This document shows, one piece after another, positions 3,436 through 55,404 of a DNA stretch of 64,000 nucleotides (the first letter of the stretch is position 1; the number at the start of each line of letters is the position of its first letter). This DNA is from Phycisphaerales bacterium (lineage in GTDB: Bacteria; Planctomycetota; Phycisphaerae; Phycisphaerales; UBA1924), in NCBI GenBank assembly GCA_022843545.1, contig JALHNL010000007.1, positions 1-64,000 of the forward strand, written 5' to 3'. The notes beneath the pieces are model-generated. The model did not search any database. It was given only the letters and a program-made list of their open reading frames with translations, and was not told the DNA's origin. The translations under genes were made by a program, and so were the position numbers.

Positions 3436-3466
3436 AGAGCCCCGGCGCACCGCGCGCCGGGGCTCT
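3436..3466. terminator. Bidirectional Rho-independent terminator
   Basis: A perfect 13-bp stem (AGAGCCCCGGCGC with its complement) around a 5-nt loop, lying between the convergent subtilase and hydrolase genes. It is followed by a T-rich stretch on the plus strand and a shorter T-containing stretch on the minus strand. Confidence 0.75.
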
Positions 3467-51548: not shown

Positions 51549-52619
<1,071 letters not shown>

Positions 52620-52677
52620 TCCGGGCAAGGACTCATCCGCGGGTCCGGCTGTCACACGCTCAGACACTTTGCACTTC

Positions 52678-52713
52678 CCTCCTTGGGGCTGGAACCCACC
52701 CGCCCCAAGGAGG
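52678..52713 (+). promoter_or_regulatory. 12-bp hairpin that sequesters the Shine-Dalgarno of the 52718 gene
   Basis: Bases 52678-52689 pair perfectly with 52702-52713 around a 12-nt loop. The 3' arm contains the entire AAGGAGG Shine-Dalgarno (52707-52713), 4 nt before ATG 52718. No T-tract follows, so it is not a normal terminator. It could act as a translational switch, such as a thermosensor or protein- or RNA-relieved structure. Confidence 0.7.
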
Positions 52714-52717
52714 TCTC

Positions 52718-53317
52718 ATGCTTCGCCTGAATCCCGCTCGTCTTGCTCTCTGCACCGCGACCCTCGCCGCCTTGGCCGGCACGGGCCGCGCCGAGGCCGC
52801 CGCTTCGCTCGTGGGCGACACTATCCAGCGCGTAAGCCAGCCTCAACTCACCGGCGTCGTCGGCGATCCGCAGTTCGCGGTGGTTCAGGATCCGGGGTTT
52901 GAGTACATCGACAGCTTCCAGTTTTCGGGAGATTTCCGCCGCATCGACATCGGCCCGGACTACATCCGCATGGAGAACCTCAGTTCGTGGTTCAGCCCGT
53001 GGTTCAACTCGGGCTTCGCGCCCACGTATGTCGAGTTCCGCGATCTGGACTTCGACGTGCCCGGCGTGGTCATCGGCGGGGTTCAGGTCTCGTGGTCGTC
53101 GACGATCGGGCTCGAGGACAACGCGCCGATCGGCTACCCGCTGTTCGGTGCGCACGCCGTGACCTGGAACGCCGACACCATCCGCCTGCAGATCGGGCCG
53201 TACTCCTTTCCTGAGGGCTCGTTCGTGCACATTCAGATCCTGACGATCCCCGCGCCCGGGGCCGGCGCGGTGGCTCTGGCGGGCGGGCTGCTGGCGCTGC
53301 GTCGCCGGCGGCGCTAG
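52718..53317 (+). CDS. Secreted protein with PEP-CTERM-like tail, translationally controlled candidate
   Basis: 199 residues. A signal peptide (about 1-28, LALCTATLAALAGTGRAEA) precedes a beta-rich body with aromatic and Asp/Gly content (YIDSFQFSGDFRRIDIGPDYI, FVHIQILTI). It ends IPAPGAGAVALAGGLLALRRRRR, the same tail type as the subtilase at 929. No catalytic motif is seen. The Shine-Dalgarno is a perfect AAGGAGG but is buried in a 12-bp hairpin. The frame is open far upstream through moxR, but that is a shadow; the signal peptide fixes the start. Confidence 0.8.
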   Translation: MLRLNPARLALCTATLAALAGTGRAEAAASLVGDTIQRVSQPQLTGVVGDPQFAVVQDPGFEYIDSFQFSGDFRRIDIGPDYIRMENLSSWFSPWFNSGFAPTYVEFRDLDFDVPGVVIGGVQVSWSSTIGLEDNAPIGYPLFGAHAVTWNADTIRLQIGPYSFPEGSFVHIQILTIPAPGAGAVALAGGLLALRRRRR

Positions 53318-53339
53318 ACCGGGCCCCGCGCCGGACCGA

Positions 53340-53345
53340 TACCAT
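53340..53345 (+). promoter_or_regulatory. TACCAT -10 element, leaderless start of the P-type ATPase gene
   Basis: TACCAT, 7 nt, ATG 53353; no Shine-Dalgarno sequence. Confidence 0.6.
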
Positions 53346-53352
53346 TGGTCGC

Positions 53353-55404
53353 ATGACCAACGCACCGGGCACATCGGCGGGCGACGGCGCCCCCCGCGGC
53401 CTCTTCTCTCCCAAGGGCGAACTTTGGGCCGCGATCACCATGGGCGCGTGCCTGCTCGTCGGCACGCTCACCCACTGGCTCGCCGACACCGGCTCGACCT
53501 TGCACGCCGCGGGCGAGGCCACGATGTGGGCCGCCCTGGCGATCGGGCTGTTTTATGGCGGGCGGGCGGCGCTCGAGTCGGTCGCGGTCGAGAAGAGGTT
53601 CGACATCGACGTGCTCATGTTCCTGGGCGCGGTGCTGGCGGCTTACCTGGGTGCGCCGGCCGAGGGCGCGCTGCTGCTCTTCCTCTTCACGCTCTCGGGC
53701 GCGCTGGAGGAACTGGCGATGGCCCGCACCCGACGGGCGGTGGAGGCCCTGCACGGGCTCATGCCCACCGCGGCCCAGAAGTGGGACGGAGCGGGGTGGA
53801 CCTCGGTGGCGCCCGAATCGCTCGCGACCGGGGACCGCGTGCGCATCCTGCCGGGCGAGAACATCCCGGCCGACGCGAGGATCGCCAAGGGCGCCACGAG
53901 CGTGAACCAGGCGACGCTCACCGGTGAGTCCATGCCCCGCGACGTCATGGAGGGCGACGAGGTCTACGCCGGGACGATCAACGTGGGCGACCCGGTGGAG
54001 GCGGTGGTGGTGCGGGCGGCGGCGCAGTCCTCGCTGCAGAAGATCCTGAATCTCGTCCTCCTGGCGCAGCAGCAGCGCGAGCCGGTGCAAAGGCTCATCG
54101 ACCGGATCAGCCAGCCCTACGCGATCGGGGTCACGCTCGCGTCGCTGGCGGTGTGGCTGATCTGGTGGCAGGCGCTGGGCTTTGAGTTCAAGGACGCGGT
54201 GTACACGGCGATCACCCTGCTGATCGTGGCCTCGCCCTGCGCGCTGATCATCAGCACGCCCACGGCGACGCTGGCTGGCATCAGCCGCGGGGCGCGCGGG
54301 GGCGTGCTCTTCAAGGGCGGGCAGTCCATCGAGCGGCTGGCGCGCGTGCGGGCCATCGCCTTTGACAAGACGGGCACGCTCACCATCGGGCGACCGCGCG
54401 TGCTGCAGGTGTATCCCTTGGCGTGGTCCGATGAGTCGCGCCTCCTGGCGGTGGCGGCCGCGCTGGAGGGGCACAGCACGCACCCGATCGCCGAGGCGGT
54501 GGTGCAGCACGCCGCGTCGCGCTCGATCACGCCCAGCCAGGCCGACGAAGTCCGCTACGTGCAGGGGCGCGGGGTGATCGCGATGGTGGACGGCGTGGAG
54601 GCCCGGCTGGGCTCGCTGGCCCACGTGGAGGACCTGGTGCCGGTGTGCCTGCGCAAGCGGCTGAGCGAGGCGCTCGCGAGCGTGCAGGGGCGCGGGCACA
54701 TCGCGGTGGTGTGCGCCCATGGCGAGCAGGCCGCGGTGATCGTGCTCAGCGACGCGACCCGCCCCGGCGCCGACTGCCTGGTGGAGCGCCTGCACGCGCA
54801 GCGCGTGCGCCCGGTGGTGATGCTCACGGGCGACAACAAGGCCACCGCCGCCGCAGTGGCGGAAGAACTCCGGCTCGACGAATTCCACGCCCAGCTGCTC
54901 CCCGCCGACAAGGTGGCGCACGTGGAGCGGCTGAAGCGCGAGCATCACGTGGTGGGCGTCATCGGCGACGGCGTGAACGACGCGCCCGCCCTGGCCCGCG
55001 CCGACGTGGCCATCGGCATCGGCTCCATCGGCTCCGACGCGGCCCTCGAATCCGCCGACATCGTCCTGCTCTCCGACGATCTCTCCGCGGTGCCCTGGTC
55101 GATTCACCTGGCGCGGCGGGTCCGCCGCACGGTGAAGATCAACCTGTCGGTCGCGCTGGGGGCGATCGCGATCATGGTGGTCGCCACGATCGTGGGCTCG
55201 CTCACGGGGCATGCGCTGCCGCTGTGGATGGGCGTGATCGGGCACGAGGGCGGCACGCTGCTGGTGGTGGGCCACTCACTGCTCTTGCTGACGTTCCGGG
55301 GCGTGCCGCTGTGCACCTGCGAGGCCGGGGCGCGACGCGGATCGGCCCGCCCCGTGGACTCCCGCCCGATCAGCGACCCGCCGCTTTCGCCCGCGCCGGC
55401 GTGA
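53353..55404 (+). CDS. P1B-4-type heavy-metal-transporting ATPase
   Basis: 683 residues, inner membrane. The phosphorylated Asp338 is in DKTGTLT. LTGESMP, HSTHPIAEAV and GDGVNDAPAL are the actuator, nucleotide-binding and P-domain motifs. The metal-site motif in the membrane is Ser294-Pro-Cys296 (VASPCALIIS), not CPC, and the last pair of helices has HEGGT (His631, Glu632). SPC plus HEGGT and the lack of an N-terminal metal-binding domain define the P1B-4 subgroup, known for Co, Fe or Zn efflux. Its 3' end overlaps the convergent TVP38-like gene by 35 bp. Confidence 0.92.
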   Translation: MTNAPGTSAGDGAPRGLFSPKGELWAAITMGACLLVGTLTHWLADTGSTLHAAGEATMWAALAIGLFYGGRAALESVAVEKRFDIDVLMFLGAVLAAYLGAPAEGALLLFLFTLSGALEELAMARTRRAVEALHGLMPTAAQKWDGAGWTSVAPESLATGDRVRILPGENIPADARIAKGATSVNQATLTGESMPRDVMEGDEVYAGTINVGDPVEAVVVRAAAQSSLQKILNLVLLAQQQREPVQRLIDRISQPYAIGVTLASLAVWLIWWQALGFEFKDAVYTAITLLIVASPCALIISTPTATLAGISRGARGGVLFKGGQSIERLARVRAIAFDKTGTLTIGRPRVLQVYPLAWSDESRLLAVAAALEGHSTHPIAEAVVQHAASRSITPSQADEVRYVQGRGVIAMVDGVEARLGSLAHVEDLVPVCLRKRLSEALASVQGRGHIAVVCAHGEQAAVIVLSDATRPGADCLVERLHAQRVRPVVMLTGDNKATAAAVAEELRLDEFHAQLLPADKVAHVERLKREHHVVGVIGDGVNDAPALARADVAIGIGSIGSDAALESADIVLLSDDLSAVPWSIHLARRVRRTVKINLSVALGAIAIMVVATIVGSLTGHALPLWMGVIGHEGGTLLVVGHSLLLLTFRGVPLCTCEAGARRGSARPVDSRPISDPPLSPAPA

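Follow-up and report, generated by a model that had tools for sequence, protein, structure and literature searches.

Inverted repeats at the ends of IS10/IS50-type insertion sequences hide the ribosome-binding site of the transposase, and they do so in read-through transcripts only. In the tisB mRNA of E. coli a hairpin in the 5'-UTR sequesters the ribosome-binding site and prevents direct binding of the 30S subunit; this gene codes for a toxin, its standby site has been mapped, and both processing and an antitoxin RNA belong to the system (PMC7708055). In the mRNA of the ISPpu9 transposase the structure of the 5'-UTR is opened by the Asr9 sRNA (PMC8450116). The hairpin described here, which lies in a 64,000-nucleotide stretch of DNA from an uncultured Phycisphaerales bacterium (the window), is a new instance of an element of known kind. 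As in other Shine-Dalgarno-sequestering leader hairpins, a stable stem encloses the Shine-Dalgarno of a real gene.

The hairpin is found in the 98-nt gap between a moxR gene and the gene for a 199-aa secreted protein (Table 1). Its two arms, 52678–52689 and 52702–52713, are exact reverse complements over 12 bp without a mismatch, and two extra G-C pairs are possible within the 12-nt loop across one mismatch. AAGGAGG is contained entirely within the 3' arm and the ATG at 52718 begins 4 nt further on. Both the pairing and the position of the Shine-Dalgarno had been picked out in an earlier sequence-only reading and both are exact; the start codon is backed by two full-length homologues, whose signal peptides begin at about the same position. 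A minus-strand frame starting at 52667, which would suggest a divergent gene, was rejected as an antisense shadow of moxR.

Table 1. Positions in the window of the hairpin, its parts and the neighbouring genes.
Feature	Position	Strand	Description
moxR, MoxR-type AAA ATPase gene	51549..52619	+	Upstream; stop codon 58 nt ahead of the hairpin; read-through transcripts may come from here
Candidate -10, TTCCCT	52675..52680	+	Weak; genome consensus TACCCT; predicted start at ~52687, inside the 5' arm
Hairpin 5' arm	52678..52689	+	CCTCCTTGGGGC; outer end CCTCCTT is an anti-Shine-Dalgarno
Hairpin loop	52690..52701	+	12 nt, TGGAACCCACCC; 6 nt after inner GG/CC pairing
Hairpin 3' arm	52702..52713	+	GCCCCAAGGAGG; full Shine-Dalgarno AAGGAGG at 52707-52713
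199-aa secreted-protein gene	52718..53317	+	Target of the hairpin; PEP-CTERM/MYXO-CTERM-like tail IPAPGAGAVALAGGLLALRRRRR
Heavy-metal P-type ATPase gene	53353..55404	+	Downstream; own leaderless-type -10 TACCAT

Folding of the leader, which the same reading had put forward as a check, gave an energy of -28.0 kcal/mol for the isolated hairpin (z -5.3 against shuffles) and a z of -3.95 for the 121-nt leader, and no shuffled sequence matched either of them in folding energy. The Shine-Dalgarno is predicted to be unpaired with a probability of about 0.001 at 37 °C, and the mean stays below 0.04 even at 85 °C. Opening it is predicted to cost 16.6 kcal/mol (about 15–17), as compared with a genome median of 4.3 kcal/mol, which supports the proposal that the structure blocks translation, for transcripts that contain the 5' arm. 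In any such transcript the folding model predicts that the Shine-Dalgarno should be inaccessible. When the 5' end was moved in silico from 52678 to 52686 the opening cost was 4.4 kcal/mol (4.4–4.9 for ends at 52686 or later), which is near the median.

To place the hairpin within its genome we used a sample of 1.26 Mb out of the 3.42 Mb, in which genes were called with a home-made simple hexamer model. AAGGAGG is present in only seven of the 1005 sampled genes, so the remark of the sequence-only reading that this Shine-Dalgarno is the best in the window is plausible. Amongst the 388 genes whose Shine-Dalgarno is 4 nt or longer, a perfect stem of at least 10 bp over the Shine-Dalgarno was found only once, at 52678–52713. 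Because shuffled upstream sequence yields only 0.017 Shine-Dalgarno-covering stems of at least 12 bp per 388-gene sample, or about 0.05 when scaled to the whole genome, the hairpin has probably not arisen by chance. In opening cost it ranks fourth of 1005 starts and first amongst the 51 with a strong Shine-Dalgarno. Two of the three starts with a higher cost have no Shine-Dalgarno, one of these being a terminator where the start was miscalled, and the third is obg, the start of which is doubtful. We rejected obg (C2:2370) as a second case, since the hairpin there is upstream of the doubtful called start and translation likely begins at the internal Met of MFVDRALITV.

The sequence-only reading had called the gene PEP-CTERM-like. 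In favour of this the genome encodes an exosortase (PF09721 match, E 1.5e-45) and there are approximately 25 genes with similar PEP-CTERM-type tails in the sampled genome. On the other hand none of the curated sorting-signal models scored above its cut-off with the 199-aa protein, the only match being to a MYXO-CTERM-type model with an E of 0.06, below the cut-off of that model. A search by sequence for a relative of the protein with a solved structure found none. A search through the family (163 genomes) and the order (400 genomes) found full-length homologues in only two other genomes, and the closest named relatives that carry one are Phycisphaerales MAGs. The two homologues, at around 40% identity, sit in different gene surroundings. 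Since in some relatives (e.g. G015 and G035) the gene for the heavy-metal P-type ATPase directly follows moxR, the 199-aa gene and its hairpin appear to have been inserted between the two in this lineage, the PEP-CTERM-type gene being extra in the region 51549–55404.

The pairing is absent in both homologues, where opening of the Shine-Dalgarno is predicted to cost 2.2 and 4.0 kcal/mol, so that the site is open; no closer homologues were present in the searched genomes. Conservation therefore cannot support a block on translation. None of the approximately 25 other PEP-CTERM-type genes of the sampled genome has a leader like this one, which rules out a shared PEP-CTERM leader, and the leader matched no Rfam family, riboswitches and other cis-regulators included, with only a sub-threshold chance match elsewhere. 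No second copy of the hairpin sequence was found in the genome and a genome- or family-wide repeat was likewise rejected. The RNA thermometer was ruled out, as such an element is only marginally stable and opens at growth temperatures, whereas the stem here is predicted to stay closed to 85 °C. Taken together, the missing pairing in the homologues, the single copy, the lack of a shared PEP-CTERM leader or an Rfam family and melting far above growth temperatures do not bear out the description of the element as a designed switch.

How the gene might be transcribed was considered from the promoter signals. Across the whole sampled genome the motif TANNNT (TACCCT/TATCCT) peaks strongly between positions -15 and -11 relative to the starts, for instance at 53338–53353 before the P-type ATPase gene, pointing to leaderless mRNAs as a probably widespread feature of the genome. 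This signal is absent at the 199-aa gene and therefore its Shine-Dalgarno should matter. A sigma-70 promoter scan was empty. The best match in the leader to the genome's own -10 motif is TTCCCT, from which RNA would begin near 52687 and so leave out most of the 5' arm; the match is weak, as it is without the most conserved A and is equalled in 20% of shuffles. An ECF-like GGAACC-16-GTCTCA at 52691–52718, spotted by eye, was discarded since it would initiate transcription inside the gene.

We tentatively favour a reading in which the hairpin acts in cis to block the translation of RNA that reads in from moxR, because its position is tied to the start codon, it is rare and stable, and truncation frees the site. 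RNA begun upstream of around 52682, above all read-through from moxR, would pair its 5' arm with the Shine-Dalgarno once the latter was made, and the closed stem would bar 30S subunits and leave the gene silent. A productive transcript could have its 5' end, by initiation or by processing, within the 5' arm or the loop, such that AAGGAGG is free; alternatively there may be a slow, standby-type entry. We infer the read-through from moxR, the start or processing site inside the hairpin and the selection on the block alike. A more specific proposal would seem improbable: a dedicated on/off gate on the translation of a single exosortase-type surface protein, where the promoter or processing site falls within the hairpin and the gene's own short mRNA alone has a free Shine-Dalgarno, and this in a genome where leaderless mRNAs otherwise abound.

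Against the block stand the weakness of the candidate -10 and the moderate T-richness of the region past the stem, which is within the range of the genome's terminators. Strong intergenic hairpins are far commoner in this genome than in shuffles and most are located 10–50 nt past a stop codon with a T-rich tail; most of them are terminators. For the 25 hairpins with arms of at least 12 there are 21 stop-codon neighbours within 10–50 nt, and in co-directional gene pairs with gaps of 60–150 nt (n = 197) 23 of the 27 hairpins lie 8–46 nt after the stop. Typical examples are perfect stems of 10–16 bp around 20–45 nt past the stop with tails such as TTTTTGGG, as at 3436–3466 of the window and at many other intergenic sites. 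One possibility is therefore that the hairpin serves moxR as its intrinsic terminator and that crowding has fused it with the following gene's ribosome-binding site; a single stem would then both end moxR transcription and hide the Shine-Dalgarno. The gap after moxR holds no further strong hairpin, and the tail of this one, TCTCATGCTT, has 5 T in 10 and a score at the 29th percentile of the genome's terminator-like hairpins. However, it begins 58 nt past the stop, beyond the usual distance, while ending 4 nt ahead of the next start; its GC-rich stem is followed by no T-run longer than 2 and a consensus terminator scan gave no match. In relatives a strong hairpin after the moxR stop is mostly missing, and if transcription ended here it would do so at the ATG, and no obvious promoter would remain for the gene. 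On this evidence we regard a terminator as possible though doubtful. Elsewhere in the genome a 9-bp perfect hairpin (GTGATACCT...AGGTATCAC; G000:C9:3626-3652) ends 1 nt ahead of an ATG and contains TACCTT; it is possible that this one is an operator over a promoter.

The combination of a near-consensus Shine-Dalgarno with so extreme a block might also be expected of a riboswitch-like device, in which an sRNA, a protein or a processing event opens the stem on demand. Leader structures opened by an sRNA are known (the ISPpu9 transposase, PMC8450116), and sequestered sites can be translated by way of standby sites (tisB, PMC7708055). Such a device is nevertheless very unlikely given the lack of an Rfam match, of a conserved leader in the homologues and of a shared one in the other PEP-CTERM-type genes, and given a stem too stable for a thermometer; moreover the sole competing pairing, found by eye, is of 6 bp (CAAGGA, between the end of moxR and the hairpin) and much weaker than the stem of 12 bp. 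The single copy in a single species would also fit a neutral or mildly harmful quasipalindrome, produced by chance or through a template switch at the Shine-Dalgarno and without a regulatory role. The gene is a lineage-specific insert of a family present in only 3 of the 400 genomes of the order, and the low whole-genome expectation applies to a case that the sequence-only reading had picked from the whole window. That 12 bp over a strong Shine-Dalgarno have been retained free of mismatches argues the other way, as a harmful block should decay, and we consider this explanation unlikely.

Pairs of long anti-Shine-Dalgarno and Shine-Dalgarno sequences were also counted across the family. Outside genus g91 they are no commoner than in the reversed control, and those tied to an ATG are slightly commoner (119 versus 78 in the family, approximately 95 versus 74 without g91). 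The other matches in the family, with stems of 8–11 bp, are mostly within long open frames or ahead of short ones. In another genus of the family the AGGAGG of a gene for a secreted protein is covered by an imperfect hairpin (G070 L194 1501-1547), which is a weaker analogue. Genus g91 itself carries palindromes in pairs, with the pattern GTGCCCTCCTTYG...CRAAGGAGG, spacer, CCTCCTTYG...CRAAGGAGGGCAC at loci L046, L048, L050, L053 and others, in many copies per genome (37 pattern matches in G171); these look like a REP/BIME- or MITE-like repeat of the genus.

If the translation block on moxR read-through is real, the locus would be a clean natural case of silencing by a single perfect hairpin that covers a near-consensus Shine-Dalgarno, and this in a phylum, Planctomycetota, where translational control has been little studied. 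That most strong intergenic hairpins of this genome are terminators sets a baseline to be considered before any such structure is called a switch. With the intrinsic terminators of its genome the hairpin shares a GC-rich perfect stem in the 10–16 bp range and an intergenic position, but it is tied to the next start rather than to the previous stop, has a poor T-run and has a larger loop. As in tisB, the ribosome-binding site is hidden by structure in the leader, with a less structured stretch ahead of it, here 52620–52677; the standby site, the processing and the antitoxin RNA are features of tisB. The resemblance to the ISPpu9 transposase mRNA is in a stable leader structure that keeps translation low, although an overlapping antisense RNA is not known here and the target gene is not a transposase. 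At the hairpin locus neither a mobile element nor a terminal repeat was detected; the likeness to the IS10/IS50 ends is that RNA arriving from outside would be blocked and RNA begun within would not.
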